This document shows, in pieces, positions 578-31,148 of a stretch of 64,000 nt of DNA (its first letter is position 1; the number at the start of each line of letters is the position of its first letter). The stretch comes from Phreatobacter sp. Lineage in GTDB: Bacteria > Pseudomonadota > Alphaproteobacteria > Rhizobiales > Phreatobacteraceae. Below the pieces are notes generated by a model. That model was not told the origin of the DNA, did no database searches, and saw only the letters and a program-made list of their open reading frames with translations. The position numbers and the translations under genes were made by a program. Where the stretch lies: the NCBI RefSeq assembly GCF_027532945.1, contig NZ_JAPZTZ010000014.1, positions 1 through 64,000 on the forward strand, given 5' to 3'.

Positions 578-2407
578 TCAGCGCGAGAGCCAGGCTCCGC
601 GCTGGCGGGCCGGAGCCGCCGGCTCGGCAAATTCCAGCGTGCGGAGCGAGGCAACGGCCTCACCGCTGAAGCGCTGGGTCGGCACGGTGGCGGGCGCCGA
701 GGCGGAGAAGGTCATGGCGACGACCTGGGCCGGCTGTTGCAGCAGCTGGCGCTCACGCGGGTCCGGCGCCTGCAGGGTGGCGGCGGGAACGGCGCGATCG
801 GTGGTCTGGCGGGCGAAGACGACGGTGCCGCGCGACCCGTTGATATTCGGCGGCACCATCGCGGGGGCGGCGACGCGGGTCGGGCGGGCGGCGGGACGCG
901 GCGCGGTGGCAGGTGCCATCGCAGCCTGGACAGGAGCCTGCGGGGCAGCCCGCACGGCCTGGGCCGGGCGGGGCTGCGGACCCTGGAGGGATGTCTGGCC
1001 CGGCAGCGTGACCGGCTGCGACGGGGAGGCGAAGGCAAGCGCCATCGCCGGCTCGCCCTCGGCCTGGCGGCCGCGCTGCTCACCCGTCGTGATGAGCGGC
1101 GGCAGGGTCGGCTGCGACGAGGCGGCGGCGAGAACCTGTGGGCGCGCGGGCGGCAGCGGCGCCTGGGCGACCGCGGCCGGCTCGCTGAGGACGGTCGGCC
1201 GGGTCGACGGTTCCGGCGCCAGGGCCACGGCGGTGCCGGGCATGGCAGGGCGGGCGGCGGGCAGCGGCGCGGCGACGAGGCGGGGCTCCGCCTCCTCCTC
1301 GGCATTGCCGCGCAGGCGCTCGGCGGCGGGGGGCGCGCGCAGCGGCAGCGGAGCGGCGGCGATCTGCATCCGCGGCGGCGCGTTGGTGACGATTTGCACC
1401 GGGCGGCCAGGGGCCGGCTGGTTGATGGCGGTCGGCACCGGCTGGGCCGGCGCGGCGGCGGCAGGGGCCGGAGCGGCTTCCGCGGCGGGGGCGGGAGCCG
1501 GGGCAGGAGCCGCCGGCTGCGGCGCCGGGGCCGCCTGCTGCTGGCGGTTGCCGAACAGACCGGCGAACAGGCCCATGGACGAACTGCGCTGGCGGATGAC
1601 CCCGCCACGGGCGCTGTCATCGTCGTCCTCGTAGGTCACGGCCTCGTCGGCCCGCGAATCGTAGAAGCGCGAGGCGGTGCCGCCACGGGCGCGGACCATG
1701 GCCAGCGCGGTCTCGAAGCCGGCCAGCGGGCGGCCGTCGGACGGGATATGGACGGTTCGACCGTCTGGGAACAGGCGGGCGAGATAATCGCGCGACACTT
1801 TCGGCCAGTGGCGGACGGAGCCAGTGTCCATGTGGACGAACTGGTTGGCCGAGCCCGGATAGAAGCCGACGCCGCCGCGCTGCAGCAGCAGGCCGGCTTC
1901 GCGCACCCGGGTCATGGACGCGCCGGGAATGTAGAAGTCCATCGCCTGGCCGGTAATGTGCCGGGACTGCTGGGCGACACCGCGCGAACGGCGGCGCAGC
2001 ATGGCGTTGGTGCCGGCGGAGCGATAGGCCGAGACGACGTGGATCTGTGACTGCGCGCCGACCGAACGATAGACCTCCCAGACGATGTCGAAGAGGTGCG
2101 GGTCCATCCGCGTCGGCTCGTCGCGGCGCCAGTCGCGCAGGAACCAGTTGAGCTTGTTCAGCGCTTCCTGGTCATAGCGGCCGTTGCGCTTGAAGGTGAT
2201 GAGGATCTGCTCGCCCGTATGCTTGTGCAGCATGGACAGCGTGCGCGTGTCGCCGTTCGCCACGACAGTCTGCGTCGAATTGCTGATGGCGATGAGGAAG
2301 CCGACACCGAGAGTGACGGTGGCACAGGCGCGCAGGGCTTTGCGCGAGACCAGGCCAGGCACGGATCGGTGGGATGAGGGCACTATGACCTGGCTCTGTC
2401 GCTGCAC
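578..2407 (-). CDS. DUF882 (YcbK-like, M15-fold) protein with long Pro/Ala-rich tail
   Basis: The protein is about 609 residues with a hydrophobic N-terminal segment (about 24-42) suggesting a membrane anchor or uncleaved signal. Residues about 55-215 form a DUF882/YcbK domain, related to metallo DD-carboxypeptidases: H150, D157 (in RHITGQAMDFY) and H192 (in FVHMD) match the zinc-ligand pattern. From about 260 onward the protein is low-complexity Pro/Ala-rich, probably a disordered periplasmic tail. It lies beside an L,D-transpeptidase gene on the same strand, as YcbK-type proteins often do with YcbB-type enzymes, suggesting a role in peptidoglycan processing. The start is uncertain: GTG 2407 gives the longest form, while GTG 2383 has a better AGG-type ribosome site. 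Confidence 0.85.
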   Translation of the reverse strand: MQRQSQVIVPSSHRSVPGLVSRKALRACATVTLGVGFLIAISNSTQTVVANGDTRTLSMLHKHTGEQILITFKRNGRYDQEALNKLNWFLRDWRRDEPTRMDPHLFDIVWEVYRSVGAQSQIHVVSAYRSAGTNAMLRRRSRGVAQQSRHITGQAMDFYIPGASMTRVREAGLLLQRGGVGFYPGSANQFVHMDTGSVRHWPKVSRDYLARLFPDGRTVHIPSDGRPLAGFETALAMVRARGGTASRFYDSRADEAVTYEDDDDSARGGVIRQRSSSMGLFAGLFGNRQQQAAPAPQPAAPAPAPAPAAEAAPAPAAAAPAQPVPTAINQPAPGRPVQIVTNAPPRMQIAAAPLPLRAPPAAERLRGNAEEEAEPRLVAAPLPAARPAMPGTAVALAPEPSTRPTVLSEPAAVAQAPLPPARPQVLAAASSQPTLPPLITTGEQRGRQAEGEPAMALAFASPSQPVTLPGQTSLQGPQPRPAQAVRAAPQAPVQAAMAPATAPRPAARPTRVAAPAMVPPNINGSRGTVVFARQTTDRAVPAATLQAPDPRERQLLQQPAQVVAMTFSASAPATVPTQRFSGEAVASLRTLEFAEPAAPARQRGAWLSR

Positions 2408-2598
2408 GAAGCACGGGACCAGGGCCGCCAGGCGACCATGGTGAACGCATCATCGCCGGGAACGGTTAAAGATCCCTGACATCCGTCAACAGTTCGCCAA
2501 CCATGCGACCGTTCACGGCAGCGTGAGCGGTAGGCAGCAAAAGTGGCGAAATCATGCTGCGACACGCACGCCCCCTGCCCGCGTTGTGAACGAAACCT

Positions 2599-4239
2599 TT
2601 AGCCGCGCATCCCGGTCAGGGCGGCACGAACCCGGGCATTGTGGCCGTAGATATCGGGAAGCTCAACGAGCTTCCCTGTCGCATCCACTGTCATCGTGAA
2701 ATAGACGAGGTGGATCGGGATGGCCTGGCGGAAGCGCACCGTGCGCTCGCCCGAGCCATAGATGCTACGCATCCTGGCCGTGGACCAATTGTCTCCGGGC
2801 AGGGCGATGCCGAGCAGCAATTCGGCAAGCTCCTCCGGATTCTGCACGCGCACGCAGCCATTCGACAGGGCGCGGTTGCTGTGGGCGAAATAGGAGCGCG
2901 ACGGCGTGTCGTGCAGGTAGACCGCGTGCCGGTTGGGGAACATGAACTTCATCCGCCCCAGCGCATTGGCGGTGCCGGGCGGCTGACGGAAGGAGTAGCG
3001 GCCGATATTGGCGGAGGCCCAGTTGATGGTGGAGGCGTCGATGACCCGGCCGCCCTGCATCACCTGGATGCCGCGATGGGCGAAATAGCCGCCGTTGCGG
3101 GCGGCCGAACTCAGCATCGAGCGCCGCACGATCGAATGCGGCACGTGCCAGGACGGGTTGAAGACGATGAAGCTCATCGCGTCAGAGAAGACCGGCGTCT
3201 GAGTCTCCGGGCGGCCCATGACGGCGCGGGTGCGATGGACCACCTGGCCCTCGCGCACGACGTTGACATGGTAATCCGGCGAATTCACCCAGATATGGGT
3301 CTCGCCCAGCGTCCGCGGCAGCCAGCGCCAGCGCTCCAGATTGGCGATGAGGTCGCGCTCGCGCAGCGCATGGAGGCGCGAGGCCTCGGTGGTGCTCATC
3401 TCCCGGCGCTCGCCGCGCATCTCGATAAGCTTGGCGCGCAGAGCCCGGAAGCCCGCATGCGGCGGGTTGAAGCCGTCGATGGCAGCAGAGACGTCAGCCG
3501 CTGCGGCGAGCGCGCCGAGGGCGACCGCTGTCTCGATGCGCGGCGGCGCCACGTCGAAATAGCCGGAGAGGCGCTTGGGGTCGGTGCGGCCACCCGAGGC
3601 ATGGGAGGCATAGCGCGCCACGGCCTGGGCGAGGGCCAGCTCGAGGCGGGCGACGCTTTCGGCGTTGCGCGGGCCCGTTGGCAGATCGATCCGATAGGCG
3701 GAGGGGTCGAGCCCGTCCTCGCCGGCCCGGGCAAGGCGGTTCAGCACCTGCTGGCCACGCTCGGAGATGATGCCTTCCCTGACGAAGAGCGGCTGGTAGG
3801 CGCGGCCGGCATAGAACGGGTTGAAGCCCTGCTGCAGGGCGCGGTCACCACCCGGGCGGGCGAGCAGGACGCGCAGCTGCTGGGCGACGCGCTCGGCGCT
3901 GATGGCGGGGTCGGGCTGGCCGGCCTCGACGAGGCTCGGCGGGTCGTCCGGCATCGCGGCGAAGTCGGCCTCCGTCGGCTGCGGCACCGGCGGGGCCTGC
4001 ACCGTCTCCGGCGCCTCGTCGTCGGGATTGTTGACCTCGGCGACCAGCGGCGAGACGGGGAAGGCGGCGAGGCCGAAATCGGCCGGCTTCAGCGGACCCG
4101 CGCCATCAAGGTCCGGGCGCGGGATCGCCTGTTCGACCTCCCAGCCGGCGAGGCGGAAGCGGCTGGCCTCCTCGGCACGGGTCACAAGCCCCGTGGCGCC
4201 CACCAGGGCGCAAGCGAGCAAAGCCGAGCGCAGTTGCAT
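2599..4239 (-). CDS. L,D-transpeptidase (YcbB/LdtD type)
   Basis: This 546-residue protein starts with a cleavable-looking signal peptide (residues 1-22, MQLRSALLACALVGATGLV). Between about 120 and 200 it has a peptidoglycan-binding-like region, and the C-terminal half carries the YkuD catalytic domain. The active-site motif SNGCVRV is at about 459-465 (Cys462), preceded by the conserved FAHSNRAL, and there is a further conserved HVPHSIV segment. The family makes 3-3 cross-links in peptidoglycan in the periplasm. Its length fits the large YcbB-type members rather than the small ErfK type. It is transcribed in the same direction as, and 192 bp upstream of, the DUF882 gene, so a shared envelope function is likely. 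Confidence 0.9.
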   Translation of the reverse strand: MQLRSALLACALVGATGLVTRAEEASRFRLAGWEVEQAIPRPDLDGAGPLKPADFGLAAFPVSPLVAEVNNPDDEAPETVQAPPVPQPTEADFAAMPDDPPSLVEAGQPDPAISAERVAQQLRVLLARPGGDRALQQGFNPFYAGRAYQPLFVREGIISERGQQVLNRLARAGEDGLDPSAYRIDLPTGPRNAESVARLELALAQAVARYASHASGGRTDPKRLSGYFDVAPPRIETAVALGALAAAADVSAAIDGFNPPHAGFRALRAKLIEMRGERREMSTTEASRLHALRERDLIANLERWRWLPRTLGETHIWVNSPDYHVNVVREGQVVHRTRAVMGRPETQTPVFSDAMSFIVFNPSWHVPHSIVRRSMLSSAARNGGYFAHRGIQVMQGGRVIDASTINWASANIGRYSFRQPPGTANALGRMKFMFPNRHAVYLHDTPSRSYFAHSNRALSNGCVRVQNPEELAELLLGIALPGDNWSTARMRSIYGSGERTVRFRQAIPIHLVYFTMTVDATGKLVELPDIYGHNARVRAALTGMRG

Positions 4240-24477: not shown

Positions 24478-25563
24478 TCACTGCGCCACGTAGGTGATGC
24501 CGCTGATGGGCGAGACGATGCGGTTGTAGATCTCGCCGCAGCGGGCGCCGCAGCGCTTCACGAAGGCCGGCAGCACCACCTTGGTCAGGGCCTCGCGCAG
24601 CGTCGCCTCGTCGGCGGCCGTGGCACGGGTGACGGTCATGGGACGGTTGGTGACCACATGGCCGATCTTGCAGCCGTCGGCATTGCCGGCATTGCACTGG
24701 ATGCCGTCTTCGGTGAGCTCGGCGCCGAGCTTCCACTGCGCCTCCTCCACCTCGTTCATCGTCGCCTGCAGGAAGTCGCGGACGGCGGGGTCGAGGCGGT
24801 TCCACCACGCAAGATTCACCGCATAGGCGGCGACGCCCCACTGGATCGGCAACGTGTAGAGATGGCGCGTCACCTCGTACCAGCGCGCGCCATTGCCAGT
24901 GGCCGTGCCGGTCACGGCGCAGTCCACCACGCCGCGCTCCAGCGCCGAATAGACCTCAGGGAAACCGATGGCGACCGGCTGGCCGCCGATGGACTGGATG
25001 AAGTCGTTCTGCGAGCCGCCGGGCGTGCGCACGCGCCGGCCCTTGAGGTCGGCGAGGCTGGTGACCGGATCGCGGCAGAACAGCACCTGGCCGGGGAAGG
25101 GATAGAAGGCGACGATCTTCACCCCGAAGCGCTCGAGCTCCTGGTTCAGCGTCGGCAGCATGGCATGGGCAATGCGCCGGCCCTGCTCATGCGAGGGGTT
25201 CTGGCCCGACATGTCGATGATGTCGAGCAGCGGCACGTCACCGGCCACCGTCGGCAGCGCCATGCCCGCCAGGTCGATCTGGCCGGCGCGCAGCACGCGG
25301 ATGAGGTCGGGGCCGGAGAGATTGCGCTCCGGCCAGCTCGCCAGCGTCACGCGGATGCGGCCGCCGGAGCGCGCCGGGATGCCCTCGCGCAGCATGGGGA
25401 TGTCGACCCTGGTGTATTGCGGGATCGAGGGCGAGAGCTGCGTCACCATCTGGATGGAGACCGGCGGGCCCGGCGGCAGGGTCGGGGCCTGGGCGAGCGC
25501 CGGTGAGGCAAGGGCGAGGCTGGCCGCGCCAAGCGCGGCAAGGGGCAGGCGAGACGAAACCAT
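24478..25563 (-). CDS. TRAP transporter substrate-binding protein (DctP family)
   Basis: The 361-residue protein has a signal peptide (MVSSRLPLAALGAASLALASPALA) and the DctP fold, with FPEVYSALERGVVDC and GRRVRTPGGSQNDFIQSIG, the positions that contact the ligand carboxylate. It would deliver an organic acid or related compound in the periplasm to a TRAP permease. Several Cys residues occur near the C-terminus (QCNAGNADGC, KRCGARC). No DctQ/DctM genes are adjacent, so its permease must be elsewhere or it has another role. ATG 25563 has GGAGG about 10 bases upstream. Confidence 0.85.
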   Translation of the reverse strand: MVSSRLPLAALGAASLALASPALAQAPTLPPGPPVSIQMVTQLSPSIPQYTRVDIPMLREGIPARSGGRIRVTLASWPERNLSGPDLIRVLRAGQIDLAGMALPTVAGDVPLLDIIDMSGQNPSHEQGRRIAHAMLPTLNQELERFGVKIVAFYPFPGQVLFCRDPVTSLADLKGRRVRTPGGSQNDFIQSIGGQPVAIGFPEVYSALERGVVDCAVTGTATGNGARWYEVTRHLYTLPIQWGVAAYAVNLAWWNRLDPAVRDFLQATMNEVEEAQWKLGAELTEDGIQCNAGNADGCKIGHVVTNRPMTVTRATAADEATLREALTKVVLPAFVKRCGARCGEIYNRIVSPISGITYVAQ

Positions 25564-25700: not shown

Positions 25701-26765
25701 TCAGCCCGGCAGCGCCCGGAGCGCCGCCCCGAGACAGACAATGACCATCATCGCCGGCAGGGCCCAGCGCAGGTGTGAGCGCAGCGCCACCGCCTCGTCA
25801 CGCCAGCGCGCCGTCGGCGAGGCAACGGCGACCGAGAGCACCACCTCGAAGAGCAGCACGGCGACGAGGTAAAGGTAGCCGAGCGAGATCATCTCCGCGA
25901 CCGGGGTGTTCAGCGAGATGGCGCCGGGAAAGCTCGATTCGAAGGTGAAGCTGATGGCGGCGAGCGCCAGCAGCGAGGAAAAGATGAGGCTGCCCTTGTC
26001 CTTCTCGAGGAGACCCGGCCCCCACAGCACAAAGAGCGACACGGCCAGCACAGCGATGACCGGCACGAAGATGCGCAGCACATAGCGCTGGGCCTCACGG
26101 GCCAGCGTCACCGTCACGTTGAGCCGCGAATAGGAGCGGGCATTCCAGCCCATGGCGAGGTCGTTGACGAAGCGCAGGCCGATGGGCCGCCAGTCGACAA
26201 CCGCGAGGGCCCGCTCGATGCCGGAGAACTGCCGGTCGGCCTCGGTGGTCATCAGCACCGCCTCCTGCTGCGGATGGCGTGGCAGCGAGAGCGCGAGGGT
26301 GAGGTTTTGCTGGTCGAAGGGAAAGGCGTCCATGGTCATGCGAACGCGCACATCCGCCTCGAAGCGCTCGATCAATACCGCCTCGCCATGGGCGTGAATG
26401 GAGAGGGCCACCGTGCGCGAGTCGCGACCGCCCACCTGATTGTCGAGGACGAGGCCCGGCGTCCAGATCGCCTTCAGCCGCTCGTCCGCCTCCGCTCCGA
26501 CGCTGTCTTCACGCGACAGACCGCGCGCCACGGCGTCGAAAGCGAGGCGCGGATCGTGCCAGCGCTGGGTGATCTCGAGATGGAGCCGCGCCTGGCCGCC
26601 GACCTCCCGCACCTCCAGCACATTGAGGACGCGCACGGCGACGCGCACGCGCACCGGCAGTTCGACGCCGCGCGGCAGGGCGGTGAGGCCCTCGCCGGCC
26701 CCCTCCGCATGGGCGATGAGGCCGAGGCCGAGGAGCCAGAGCCAGGCGAGGAGGATGCGGGCCAT
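25701..26765 (-). CDS. Pentameric ligand-gated ion channel homologue (Cys-loop-type, prokaryotic)
   Basis: The protein (about 354 residues) starts with a signal peptide and has an extracellular beta-sandwich with two hallmark motifs: WTPGLVLDN (the W-x-P...N of loop A) and DAFPFDQQNLTLAL (the FPFD-x-Q of the prokaryotic Cys-loop equivalent). Four membrane helices follow: M1 YVLRIFVPVIAVLAVSLFV with its conserved proline, M2 in GSLIFSSLLALAAISFTFES, M3 ISLGYLYLVAVLLFEVVL, and M4 near the end. This matches GLIC/ELIC-type channels, which form pentameric pores opened by small ligands or protons. ATG 26765 overlaps the stop of the upstream Cache gene (TGATG); a GTG at 26768 is an alternative. Ion selectivity and ligand are not predictable from this reading. 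Confidence 0.85.
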   Translation of the reverse strand: MARILLAWLWLLGLGLIAHAEGAGEGLTALPRGVELPVRVRVAVRVLNVLEVREVGGQARLHLEITQRWHDPRLAFDAVARGLSREDSVGAEADERLKAIWTPGLVLDNQVGGRDSRTVALSIHAHGEAVLIERFEADVRVRMTMDAFPFDQQNLTLALSLPRHPQQEAVLMTTEADRQFSGIERALAVVDWRPIGLRFVNDLAMGWNARSYSRLNVTVTLAREAQRYVLRIFVPVIAVLAVSLFVLWGPGLLEKDKGSLIFSSLLALAAISFTFESSFPGAISLNTPVAEMISLGYLYLVAVLLFEVVLSVAVASPTARWRDEAVALRSHLRWALPAMMVIVCLGAALRALPG

Positions 26766-27733
26766 CACGCCTCCTGCCGGCGCAGGCGGGCGAGAACCAG
26801 GAAGGCGACGAAGGCAACGATGCCGCCGACAAGGGCCATGACCCAGAGCTCCGTGGTCAGCCGCCGCCCGTCGGAGCCCATCTCTTCGCGGGCGATGACG
26901 GTGAGGCCGATGAGCCGGCCGGAGAAATCCACCAGCGGCTGGGCCATGACGGCATAGGTTCGCCCGTCGAGGCGGCGGGTGCCGATGCTCACGTCGCGGA
27001 CGGCGCGCAACGGCTCGGCGCGCATCAGCCCGGTGAACAGCGCCTCGTCGGTCGCCGCCATGACGGTGAGGTCGCCCACCGCCGGCAGCTTGGGGTCGAG
27101 CGTGACGCCGGCGAGCGAGGACGCGGCAATGACGGCGATGTCGGTATTGGTCGCAGTCTTCACGAGGTCGAGGATCGGCCGGATGTCGAGGCCAGCCTCC
27201 ACCGTGCCGAGCAGGGAGGCGCCCTGCTCGACCGGCGCGACGCCGCGGATGCCGATGCCGGCAATGCCGATCTCGACGCCGGTCTGCGCCCGGCGCAGGC
27301 GGTTCGCCGCCACCACCATGGCGCGGAAGGTGGAGATGTCGTCACCGTGCTGGTCGGGCCGGTGCATGCGCAGGAGGTAGCGCAGGTCCGGCGTGTGAAA
27401 GCCGAAGATCTGCACACTCGCCTGGCCGCCGAGATAGCCATAGGCCTCGGCCGAGAGCGCCTGGAGCCGCTGCCGGTCGCTGGCGGCAAGGGCCGCGCGC
27501 ACCTGCGGGTTGCGGCCGAAGGATTCGGCGATGGCGAGGGCGAATTTCGCCGCCTGGTCCATGTTGGCGCCAAGCAGCGAGCCGACGAGCTGCATTTGCG
27601 CGGTGCGGTCGCGCTCCTCGACGGCGCGAAGGCTCGCCTGCTGGTGGCGGAGCATCGCCCCAAGCACCAGGGCGATCACAAGGGCCGGCGCCAGAGCGCT
27701 GGCGCCGATCCGTCTCCACTGCACTGCCACCAC
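26765..27733 (-). CDS. Membrane-anchored double-Cache (dCache_3-like) sensor protein without output domain
   Basis: From GTG 27733 (CAGGGA 8 bases upstream; ATG 27778 is the alternative) the protein is 322 residues. A membrane helix near the N-terminus is followed by a periplasmic region with the dCache_3 pattern: LRYLLRMHRPDQHGDDIS, FRAMVVAANRLRRAQTGVEIGIAGIGIRGVAPV and GTVEAGLDIRPIL. A second helix (ELWVMALVGGIVAFVAFLVLARL) ends in a short basic tail. Chemoreceptors and kinases usually follow such a domain with HAMP and signalling domains, which are absent here. Its stop overlaps the channel gene start, so the two proteins are made in step. Confidence 0.82.
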   Translation of the reverse strand: MVAVQWRRIGASALAPALVIALVLGAMLRHQQASLRAVEERDRTAQMQLVGSLLGANMDQAAKFALAIAESFGRNPQVRAALAASDRQRLQALSAEAYGYLGGQASVQIFGFHTPDLRYLLRMHRPDQHGDDISTFRAMVVAANRLRRAQTGVEIGIAGIGIRGVAPVEQGASLLGTVEAGLDIRPILDLVKTATNTDIAVIAASSLAGVTLDPKLPAVGDLTVMAATDEALFTGLMRAEPLRAVRDVSIGTRRLDGRTYAVMAQPLVDFSGRLIGLTVIAREEMGSDGRRLTTELWVMALVGGIVAFVAFLVLARLRRQEA

Positions 27734-27860: not shown

Positions 27861-29459
27861 ATGGCTAAACCGCCGGCCATGACCGTCACCCAATCCCCCG
27901 CCTCGCGGCGGCGCACCTTCGCGATCATCTCGCACCCGGACGCCGGCAAGACGACGCTGACCGAGAAGCTGCTGCTCTTCGGCGGCGCCATCCAGCTCGC
28001 CGGCGAGGTCAAGGCCAAGCAGGGCCGCCGCCAGACCTCCTCCGACTGGATGGCCATCGAGCGCCAGCGCGGCATTTCGGTCGTCACCTCGGTGATGACC
28101 TTCGAATATGGCGGCTGCGTCTTCAATCTCCTGGACACGCCGGGCCACGAGGACTTCTCCGAGGACACCTATCGCACGCTGACGGCGGTGGATTCCGCCA
28201 TCATGGTCATCGACGGCGCCAAGGGCGTCGAGGACCGCACGCGCAAGCTCGTTGAGGTCTGCCGCCTGCGCGACATCCCCATCATCACCTTCGTGAACAA
28301 GATGGACCGCGAGAGCCGCGATCCCTTCGACCTCATGGACGATGTGGAGAAGGCGCTGGCGATCGACACCACGCCGATGACCTGGCCCATCGGCCAGGGC
28401 CGCGAATTCGCCGGCACCTATGATCTCGTCCACAACCACATCCGCCGCATCGACCACGATGACGATGTCATCAAGGTCAACGGGCCGGAGGCCGCGGTCT
28501 TCGATGAGCTCCTGCCCAACGGCACCGACGACTGGCGCGAGAGCGCCCTGCTCGCCAAGGAGGGCGCCAAGCCCTTCGACCTCGCGAGCTATCGCGAAGG
28601 CCACCTGACGCCCGTCTATTTCGGCTCGGCCCTGCGCAATTTCGGCGTCCGCGACCTCATCGACGCGCTCATCGCCTATGCCCCGGCGCCGCGCGCCCAG
28701 GTCGCCGACAGCCGTACCGTGCTCGCCGACGAGCCGCGCATGACCGGCTTCGTCTTCAAGATCCAGGCGAACATGGATCCGAACCACCGCGATCGCATCG
28801 CCTTCCTGCGCGTCTGCTCGGGCAAGCTCTCCCGCGGCATGAAGGCGCGGCTGGTGCGCACCGGCAAGCCCATGCCGCTGAACGCGCCGCAGTTCTTCTT
28901 CGCCCAGGACCGCCAGCTCGCCGAGGAGGCCTTTGCCGGCGACATCGTCGGCATTCCCAACCACGGCACGCTGCGCATCGGCGACACGCTGACCGACGGC
29001 GAGGACATCGTCTTCAAGGGCGTGCCGAGCTTCGCGCCCGAGCAGCTGCGCCGCGTCAAGCTGAAGGATGCGATGAAGGCCAAGAAGCTGCGCGAGGCGT
29101 TGCAGCAGATGGGCGAGGAGGGCGTCGTCCAGCTCTTCGTGCCCAATGACGGCTCACCGGCCATCGTCGGCGTCGTCGGCGCGCTGCAGCTCGACGTGCT
29201 CAAGGAGCGACTGGCGGCCGAATACACCCTGCCGGTGGACTTCGACCCGTGCCAGTTCTCGGTCTGCCGCTGGATCTCCTCCGACGACGAGCGCGTGCTC
29301 GACGCCTTCATCGAGAGCCATGGCTCCTCCATGGCGCGCGACCTCGACGGCGCGCCGGTCTACATGGCCTCCTCGGCCTTCTCGCTGCGCTACGAGGAGG
29401 AACGCGCCGCCGGCATCACCTTCTCGGCGGTGAAGGACTATCAGCGCGCCGCAGCCTGA
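27861..29459 (+). CDS. prfC: Peptide chain release factor 3
   Basis: RF3 is a GTPase that recycles RF1/RF2 after termination. The 532-residue protein has G1 SHPDAGKTTLTEK, switch motif EIRQRGISV as ERQRGISVV, G3 DTPGHEDFSEDT, G4 NKMDRE and domain III 'QLDVLKERLAAEY'. The RF3-specific DWMAIERQRGISVVTSVM confirms RF3 rather than EF-G. ATG 27861 or 27879 (MTVTQ) may be the start; neither has a strong ribosome site. Confidence 0.96.
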   Translation: MAKPPAMTVTQSPASRRRTFAIISHPDAGKTTLTEKLLLFGGAIQLAGEVKAKQGRRQTSSDWMAIERQRGISVVTSVMTFEYGGCVFNLLDTPGHEDFSEDTYRTLTAVDSAIMVIDGAKGVEDRTRKLVEVCRLRDIPIITFVNKMDRESRDPFDLMDDVEKALAIDTTPMTWPIGQGREFAGTYDLVHNHIRRIDHDDDVIKVNGPEAAVFDELLPNGTDDWRESALLAKEGAKPFDLASYREGHLTPVYFGSALRNFGVRDLIDALIAYAPAPRAQVADSRTVLADEPRMTGFVFKIQANMDPNHRDRIAFLRVCSGKLSRGMKARLVRTGKPMPLNAPQFFFAQDRQLAEEAFAGDIVGIPNHGTLRIGDTLTDGEDIVFKGVPSFAPEQLRRVKLKDAMKAKKLREALQQMGEEGVVQLFVPNDGSPAIVGVVGALQLDVLKERLAAEYTLPVDFDPCQFSVCRWISSDDERVLDAFIESHGSSMARDLDGAPVYMASSAFSLRYEEERAAGITFSAVKDYQRAAA

Positions 29460-30157
29460 CGGCCATTGCCGCGCGGCGAGCCAACCGCCTGGCCGATCCA
29501 GCCGATGACGCGGTTGTGCAGGCCGGCATCCTTGTCGATGTTGAAATGCGTCAGGTTGGCCTCCTGGCGCAGGTCGATGTTTTCCAGCCGGCCGCGATAG
29601 CCCGGCACGGCGAAGACCTGGGTCCCCCAGCCATTGTTGGACTGGAAGAGGTTGACGTAGCGCCGCGCACCCCCTGCAAGGGACTGGCGAACCGTCGGGT
29701 CGAAGGCCACCGCCAGCGCCAGGGTCCCGCCCTGCTGCGCCACGGCATTGGCGATATCGGTGACGGCATTGGCGCCGAGCGAATGGCCGATGACAACCGC
29801 CTGGTGGCGCCCGCCGGTCGCGCGCTGGTTGGCGACGATCTCCGCAGCGATGGTGCTCCAGGCGCCGTGCTCGTGGACGGTGGCGTTGTAGCCGCGCGCC
29901 CGGAGCTTGGCGCCGAGATCGTCCATGCCCTGCGAGAAGACATTGGCGAGGCCGCGGATCAGGTAGATGCGCGGCGGGATGGCCGTCGTCCGGCGCGCCG
30001 AGGCGGTGGAATAGACATCACCCCGGGCCATGGCGTCGCGTGCCATCTGCACGGCTCCGCCCCCCTCTCCGCTGATCTCCGCCGTCGTCTGGCACCCGGC
30101 CAGCAACAGACCCGAGAACACGACGCCCAGAACCCGGACGCGCAGCGACACTGCCAT
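29441..30157 (-). CDS. Lipoprotein with alpha/beta-hydrolase GHSLG motif (paralogue A)
   Basis: From ATG 30157 the protein is 238 residues with a lipoprotein signal ending in the lipobox LLAGC (SGLLLAGCQTT). The body contains RIYLIRGLANVFSQGMDDLGAKL, the nucleophile elbow VVIGHSLGANAV (Ser in GHSLG), FDPTV with the likely acidic residue, NGWG and NIDL, and LTHFNID with a candidate catalytic His. It is presumably anchored to the periplasmic face and may be an esterase or lipase. The next gene upstream is a clear paralogue. It converges with prfC, and the two 3' ends overlap by 19 bp. Confidence 0.75.
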   Translation of the reverse strand: MAVSLRVRVLGVVFSGLLLAGCQTTAEISGEGGGAVQMARDAMARGDVYSTASARRTTAIPPRIYLIRGLANVFSQGMDDLGAKLRARGYNATVHEHGAWSTIAAEIVANQRATGGRHQAVVIGHSLGANAVTDIANAVAQQGGTLALAVAFDPTVRQSLAGGARRYVNLFQSNNGWGTQVFAVPGYRGRLENIDLRQEANLTHFNIDKDAGLHNRVIGWIGQAVGSPRGNGRQAAAR

Positions 30158-30345
30158 GGCCAACCCCAGCCTTCGACGACCTGCTCCAAACCCGGGCGCA
30201 CCGCTGCGGTTCACCCGGCAAGACTCGCCGGTCAACCTGACGGAACGTGGTTAATCCAAGCTGAAGATGGGGAACCGTGCCTGTCAACGGTTCGCTGAGC
30301 GAGCCCGCGCCATGGCCTGGCAGCTGTTGCAGCCTTGCCGCGCTG

Positions 30346-31059
30346 TCAGGAGGGGCGGCCGTCGCGCGCCCGGGCGACGGCAGGCACCGGCGCTGCCCTC
30401 GCAGGGATCTGGCGGATCGCGGTGAGGACCCGCTCATGCACCCTGGCGTCGCGGTCGATGGTGAAATGGGTCAGGTGCTCCATCGTCTTGAGGTCGATGT
30501 TCTCGACCCCTCTGGCGCCAGCCCCCACACCGACCGCGCGGCCCCAGCCATTGTCGGACTGGTAGAAATTGAGGAACTGGCGGGCGCCACCCTGGACGGT
30601 GAGGTCCACCGTCGGATCGAAAGTGACGGCGAGATCGACCTCCACGCCGCGAGCCGCAAGGGTGTTGACCAGAGCGACGACGGAATTGGCGCCCAGCGAA
30701 TGGCCGACGATCACAGCGCGAGAGGCCCCGCCACTGGCCCGCCGGTCCTCGATGATCTGCGCCGCGATGGCCGGCCATTCGCCATAGGCGTGAACGCTGG
30801 CGCGATAGCCCTGCCGCACGAGCTTGGCGGAGAGGTGATCGACGCCCTCGGAGACGGTCTGGGCGAGGCCGCGCATGAGGAAGACGCGCGGCCGCGATCG
30901 GGCGGCGGGATCGGTGTCGAGCGGCGTCGCGGCGGCCAGCGCCGGTGCGGCGCCCGCCTGCGGCAGGGCCTCGCTGGGCGCGACCATCTCGATGGTCTGG
31001 CAGCCCCCGAGGAGGCCCGCCACGACCAAAGCTCCGACCAACCTGCGCAACACGACCAT
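30346..31059 (-). CDS. Lipoprotein with alpha/beta-hydrolase GHSLG motif (paralogue B)
   Basis: This 237-residue protein has a lipobox LLGGC at about 22 and the same order of motifs as its neighbour: RVFLMRGLAQTVSEGVDHLSAKL, VIVGHSLGANSV, FDPTVDLTVQGGARQFLNFYQSDNGWG, ENIDLKTMEHLTHFTIDRDARVHERV. The two copies are therefore a tandem duplication, sharing perhaps 40-50% by eye. The start may be GTG 31074 or ATG 31059; neither has a clear ribosome site. The substrate is unknown; the conserved His in LTHFxID is a good candidate for the third catalytic residue. Confidence 0.75.
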   Translation of the reverse strand: MVVLRRLVGALVVAGLLGGCQTIEMVAPSEALPQAGAAPALAAATPLDTDPAARSRPRVFLMRGLAQTVSEGVDHLSAKLVRQGYRASVHAYGEWPAIAAQIIEDRRASGGASRAVIVGHSLGANSVVALVNTLAARGVEVDLAVTFDPTVDLTVQGGARQFLNFYQSDNGWGRAVGVGAGARGVENIDLKTMEHLTHFTIDRDARVHERVLTAIRQIPARAAPVPAVARARDGRPS

Positions 31060-31148
31060 GAACTGAACCGACACGACAAACGACTGCGACGCCCGGGCCG
31101 GGGCGCCGGGCGATGGTCGAAAGACTCAAAGGCAGGGGCGGTGAAGAG

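Follow-up and report, generated by a model that had tools for sequence, protein, structure and literature searches.

A Cache sensor of chemoreceptor kinship encoded in overlap with a pentameric ligand-gated ion channel in bacteria

The pentameric channel studied here is a relative of the ion channels of human nerve receptors, and to our knowledge the native stimulus and the role of most bacterial relatives of the nicotinic and GABA receptors are unknown. The window analyzed in this work, a stretch of 64,000 nucleotides from Phreatobacter sp., puts this problem in a concrete form: a channel gene overlaps with the gene of a stand-alone Cache sensor, and the question is whether the sensor controls the channel. 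We find that the pair is real, conserved and lineage-specific, that its sensor is kin to chemoreceptors, and that its first published mention concerns one genus. On balance, we favor the reading that the two genes encode a receptor-channel made up of a chemoreceptor-like sensing half and a pentameric channel.

The overlapping genes of sensor and channel

The channel gene (25701..26768, minus strand) encodes a pentameric ligand-gated ion channel of 355 amino acids: its product matches the Pfam family Neur_chan_LBD (61.4 bits, E 1.1e-16, cut-off 26) and aligns with the entries for a proton-gated channel. The first-pass annotation had made this call from the motifs W-x-P and FPFD-x-Q; both are present (W102-x-P104 and F149-P-F-D152-x-Q154), and Pfam and the alignment agree with it. 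The best solved relatives are the Glr4197/proton-gated channel entries (GLIC), to which residues 36-323 could be aligned, and a profile of the paired channels aligns with the Glr4197 entry at positions 27-347 of 355, through the membrane helices. The alignments of 83 Caches and 83 channels used throughout were drawn from 88 paired loci: the window replaces L001, and L004, L007, L086, L089 and L091 were left out; L004 and L046 as well as L007 and L067 look like the same genomes sampled twice, and L086 and L089 hold partial Caches. All 83 paired channels match Neur_chan_LBD (E 0.01 or less), and the FPFD Pro-loop motif (26313..26324, minus strand), located in the extracellular ligand-binding domain (26094..26660, minus strand; Pfam residues 37-225), is invariant in the 83 rows. 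In the pore helix M2 (25926..26000, minus strand), we take D257 to be the acidic -1' residue and L267 the 9' residue, the prime numbering having been placed by eye on the alignment with the Glr4197 entry. The 9' residue is Leu in 63/63 rows of the near clade and Phe in 20/20 rows of the far clade. An acidic ring at -1' goes along with cation selectivity, as in the nicotinic receptors; because this ring is acidic in the window channel and in 74 of the 83 paired channels overall, the paired channel is by analogy probably cation-selective. The product of the window gene is predicted to form a pentamer that conducts ions.

The upstream gene (26765..27733, minus strand; the start was taken as GTG 27733, with GTG 27730 or 27724 as alternatives) encodes the stand-alone dCache_3 sensor, as judged from the Pfam match (93.9 bits, E 1.5e-26, cut-off 25.7) and from an AlphaFold2 model (pLDDT 93.8, pTM 0.86). 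No second Pfam family exceeded its cut-off in this protein, and neither MCPsignal nor HAMP was found. Hydropathy, the model and fold searches agree on two hydrophobic helices that flank a double Cache fold: the first transmembrane helix (27653..27709, minus strand), recognized by hydropathy, forms part of the model's long first helix and precedes the membrane-distal Cache module (27170..27571, minus strand), whereas the second (26792..26848, minus strand) leads into a short tail that lacks HAMP, as indicated by hydropathy, the tail lengths and the lack of a HAMP match. The earlier description of a two-helix membrane protein made only of a dCache_3-like sensor is thus borne out. The statement that this sensor lacks HAMP applies to the window protein but not with the same certainty to its relatives: all 83 paired Caches match dCache_3, none matches MCPsignal and three match HAMP (Pfam, E 0.01), but 51 of the 83 carry a tail of 49-87 amino acids that resembles HAMP on inspection by eye. 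With Pfam matches in just these three proteins, the assignment of HAMP domains to the long tails was not adopted.

The stop codon of the Cache gene (TGA 26767-26765) overlaps with the start of the channel gene at 26763..26768 (minus strand), by 4 bp if the channel starts at GTG 26768 and by 1 bp if it starts at ATG 26765. The TGATG overlap that had first drawn attention to the locus is present with the ATG start, and the GTG start is also possible; either way, the observation of an overlapping gene pair is confirmed. An overlapping stop and start are available in 75 of the 88 paired loci (4 bp in 70, 1 bp in five), a count that favors overlapping starts as it covers all loci where such a start exists. 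Translation of the two genes is probably coupled, with the two proteins made together. Cache and channel are separate open reading frames in all 88 paired loci, and dN is well below dS for both genes in 5/5 comparisons (window versus L002: Cache, dN 0.026 and dS 0.29; channel, dN 0.026 and dS 0.33). At L083, L065 and L071, the two genes share one reading frame, with the stop codon and one further codon between them. Elsewhere in the window, two neighboring genes (29444-30235 and 30349-31074, minus strand) look similar to each other and lipoprotein-like by eye; they have no Pfam match at E 0.001.

Conservation of the pair across genomes

The first-pass annotation proposed to look for co-occurrence of the two adjacent genes. 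A contig scan with patterns from nine close paired channels found 90 channel relatives, and a Cache lies directly upstream of the channel in 80/80 of the best 80 of these 90, which share 81% to 24% identity. In 79 of the 80 loci the Cache is a separate frame on the same strand; in the eightieth, L079, the contig starts within the terminal part of a Cache-like frame, and this locus was counted after reading it by eye. Since the scan patterns came from nine paired channels, the figure of 80/80 is valid within one kin group. The paired loci come from five phyla, i.e. Pseudomonadota, Myxococcota, Acidobacteriota, Verrucomicrobiota and Bacteroidota. The objection that the pair is not conserved therefore fails, and the two genes are not neighbors by chance. 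In the only Bacteroidota pair (L091:358-1520), the Cache frame is split into two pieces that overlap, due to a lesion or an assembly error.

Three genome surveys reached beyond this kin group. Among 249 genomes of the window's order, 18 had a channel match, at 21 loci; nine of these loci (in eight genomes) have a Cache, and 12 have none in the flank seen. A phylum-wide sample searched with the general Pfam model gave eight channel loci in 7/398 genomes, three of them paired, and a class-wide sample searched with the paired-channel profile gave four loci in 4/385 genomes, among which the window's own was the one pair. Together, the surveys yielded 29 distinct channel loci, and 11 of them are paired. 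The other 18, which belong to more distant channels, showed no Cache match in their upstream flanks of 411-1380 bases; as these flanks are short, a Cache gene further away is possible for them. With such low counts, the system is rare, and the presence of the Cache partner follows the channel lineage.

A third partner did not emerge from the neighborhoods: apart from antisense shadow frames (15 and 13 loci), no other gene family was seen near the pair in more than eight of the 80 loci, in a crude survey whose largest clusters recovered the channel in 61/80 and the Cache in 41/80. Some genomes hold more than one pair. In genome G065 (L006 and L019) and in Rhizobium terrae (L078 and L090), two pairs from different clades are found, each channel with its own Cache. 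At L018 (genome G140), two pentameric channel genes stand in tandem (823-1947 and 2031-3086), and their products could form a mixed pentamer.

Presumed ligand pocket and chemoreceptor kinship of the sensor

The presumed ligand-pocket residues of the Cache are R123, H125, D133, R138, N145, E155 and R164 (27245..27370, minus strand; numbers count from codon 27736 and are one more than from GTG 27733), as judged from column counts in the near clade, the far clade and chemoreceptors. In the near clade, R123 is present in 62/63 rows and R138, E155 and R164 each in 63/63. The chemoreceptor rows, cut at 400 residues and without L120, have R123, R138 and E155 in 21/21 each and R164 in 19/21. From this conservation, the Cache protein is predicted to bind a small molecule. 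The far clade has lost R164 (Phe in 19/20, Leu in 1/20), and a single ligand class therefore cannot fit all pairs.

For the window's own branch, the ligand is perhaps a carboxylate. In a second-look alignment, the closest structures to the distal Cache module were citrate-sensor domains, whereas in Foldseek's own ranking the top places went to dicarboxylate sensors, amino-acid sensors and others, and the citrate sensor came at rank 49. R164 aligns, with weak E-values, with the Arg in the RGK stretch of CitA. Arg66 and His69 of CitA are named in the available part of PMC5595915. Equating them with R123 and H125 was a guess that we dropped: the HMMER alignment instead covered the RGK region and a helix, again with weak E-values.

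The putative extracellular site of the channel is likewise conserved (loop C W208 in 82/83 rows, N110 in 79/83, D178 in 80/83), and for this reason the channel may have a ligand of its own. This speaks for the most serious competing explanation, in which the Cache would be a helper without a gating function, serving to concentrate or present a ligand or to assist in assembly, and channel opening would depend on a ligand bound at the channel's own extracellular site. It comes close to the proposal in the accessible text of Tasneem et al. 2004 (PMC549065) that such domains carry out a preliminary step of concentration or sensing. However, the Cache is a two-helix membrane receptor of a chemoreceptor lineage rather than a soluble binding protein, and its presumed pocket has been kept although the output domain is absent. 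We thus regard a pure helper as unlikely, though it deserves to be weighed seriously.

The kinship with chemoreceptors was traced with a profile of the 83 paired Caches, which gave 35 matches with an E-value of at most 1e-40 in the 249 genomes of the window's order, with up to eight candidates scored per genome. The nine genes next to a channel take the first nine places, at 338 bits or more, followed by a match of 231 bits; this top rank is to be expected because the profile was built from paired proteins. The other 26 matches lie in stop-to-stop frames of 656-797 amino acids (25 cases) or in a frame of 288 amino acids that reaches the contig end (one case). Frame length alone is not decisive, because one paired Cache has a frame of 659 amino acids. 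A domain scan of 22 of these 26 relatives detected MCPsignal in 21 and HAMP in 19 (E 0.001 or less), the twenty-second, L120, being the one cut by the contig end; the remaining four, with frames of 677-745 amino acids, were left out of the scan and of the tree. In the window's order, the unpaired proteins closest to the paired Caches are thus methyl-accepting chemoreceptors, and the sensor looks like the front half of a chemoreceptor in which the presumed pocket was retained and the output was lost; evolution would then have run from a chemoreceptor to the paired sensor.

Both sides of the pair form one lineage each. In the Cache tree, one split (support 99) separates the 83 paired Caches from the 22 unpaired relatives, which are the best matches of one order, so that a wider sample of dCache_3 chemoreceptors, kinases and cyclases could change it. 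In the channel tree, one split (support 100, with long-branch warnings) separates 85 paired from 15 solo channels. The paired-channel profile, built from 83 of these 85, scores paired channels at 367-506 bits and solo channels at 57-138 bits; L135 and L140, the two paired channels outside the profile, reach 370 and 460 bits. The two gene trees, both of them quick trees, have 45 (Cache) and 42 (channel) splits at an SH-aLRT of 95 or more, with 35 shared and none in conflict. Overall, 55/80 splits are shared, as compared to at most three in 200 label shuffles, and the tree distances correlate at 0.89. This agreement could also be the outcome of close linkage alone.

In an improbable alternative, the Cache would partner with full-length dCache_3 chemoreceptors, in mixed dimers or in arrays, and the channel would merely be a co-regulated neighbor. 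In its favor, the genome contains 26 matches to MCPsignal, of which two belong to dCache_3 receptors paralogous to the Cache. Against this stand the lack of any other conserved neighbor in the crude survey of 80 loci and the scarcity of HAMP, which is absent from the window protein and rare among its relatives. Moreover, a stand-alone Cache of this kind without a channel was not seen in the 249 genomes of the window's order (E 1e-40, at most eight candidates per genome). Finally, a three-part system in which the DctP-type TRAP solute-binding protein encoded directly after the channel (24478-25563, minus strand; DctP match) would deliver a carboxylate is very improbable. In its favor, the window has no DctQ match (13 are found elsewhere in the genome), and the available text of Tasneem et al. 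(PMC549065) describes PBP-II genes that stand alone next to channels of other bacteria. Against it, a gap of 137 bp with a promoter-like site (25634-25607) separates the channel from DctP if the latter starts at ATG 25563. Moreover, of the loci read, whose flanks are short in the genome surveys, only the window and L002 have a DctP match next to the channel, so that a Cache-channel-DctP operon was rejected as a conserved unit.

A possible receptor-channel and its known relatives

The conserved pairing suggests that the sensor controls the channel, and we therefore return to the two-gene receptor-channel. The Cache protein, with its first transmembrane helix, periplasmic double Cache and second transmembrane helix, would correspond to the sensing half of a methyl-accepting chemoreceptor without the signaling domain and, in the window's branch, also without HAMP. 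A small molecule, perhaps a carboxylate in the window's branch, would bind to the distal Cache module, and the signal would travel via the second transmembrane helix or the periplasmic domain to the channel. The channel would then be opened or tuned, and an ion flux would take the place of the chemoreceptor signal to a kinase. A more specific version is tentative: the controlling site would reside on a distinct subunit acquired from a chemoreceptor, a carboxylate bound to the Cache would open a cation pore, and an ion channel would have replaced the chemotaxis output. All this presupposes a physical complex, which we infer. In a linked-chain AlphaFold2 model of the L083 pair (one copy of each protein; three paired rows of 49; pLDDT 88.8, pTM 0.54), both halves fold well with no confident interface, as if they had been placed freely. 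A conserved partner with a chemoreceptor-type pocket offers a concrete route to the native ligand and the physiological output of such a channel, and the pair is a test case for the coupling of a receptor module to a channel.

The first-pass annotation had called the pair an undescribed two-part system. The unit is real and conserved, but "undescribed" is too strong, since for Rhodopseudomonas a channel and a stand-alone Cache gene had already been placed together in one predicted operon by Tasneem et al. 2004 (PMC549065), who, in the available text, also propose a cooperation of Cache and channel and suggest bacterial channels as chemotaxis receptors. Theirs is the one report of a stand-alone Cache gene tied to such a channel that our literature search found, as far as its text is available. 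Like the window pair, this ART-LGIC operon combines a channel of simple architecture with a separate Cache gene, the gene order not being given in the accessible 2004 text. The Rhodopseudomonas loci L044, L048 and L049 fall with the window Cache into a single group (31 Cache rows, support 100), so that the likeness to the 2004 case holds at the genus level. In its available part, that report concerns one bacterium and contains neither a tracing to chemoreceptors nor conservation across phyla; on this breadth and this kinship, a literature search that covered few subscription papers or bioRxiv found no report. The words "Cache" and "operon" are absent from the accessible text of Jaiteh et al. 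2016 (PMC4795631), and in the available part of Upadhyay et al. 2016 (PMC4822843), no ion channel appears among the dCache_3 proteins, the respective column counting only calcium-channel subunit domains.

Several known systems share parts of this arrangement. GLIC, the proton-gated channel of Gloeobacter, is the closest solved channel, with a nearly full-length alignment, the Pro-loop and M2. DeCLIC and the channels with fused N-terminal domains are likewise prokaryotic pentameric channels tuned by an additional periplasmic module; there, according to the available parts of PMC12664993 and PMC9897478, the module belongs to one polypeptide and its lobes are comparable to jelly-roll folds, whereas the window has a separate Cache membrane protein. 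The dCache_3 methyl-accepting chemoreceptors share the sensor and the pocket residues with the paired Caches, but they possess MCPsignal, which the paired Caches lack, HAMP being matched by Pfam in only 3/83. The carboxylate sensors CitA and DcuS are histidine kinases in which the matched domain is a single Cache module, and the ligand of the window Cache is putative. Finally, the alpha2delta subunits of animal calcium channels are Cache-bearing accessory proteins of an ion channel as well; with dCache_1 domains and a voltage-gated partner, their likeness to the sensor described here is one of analogy only.
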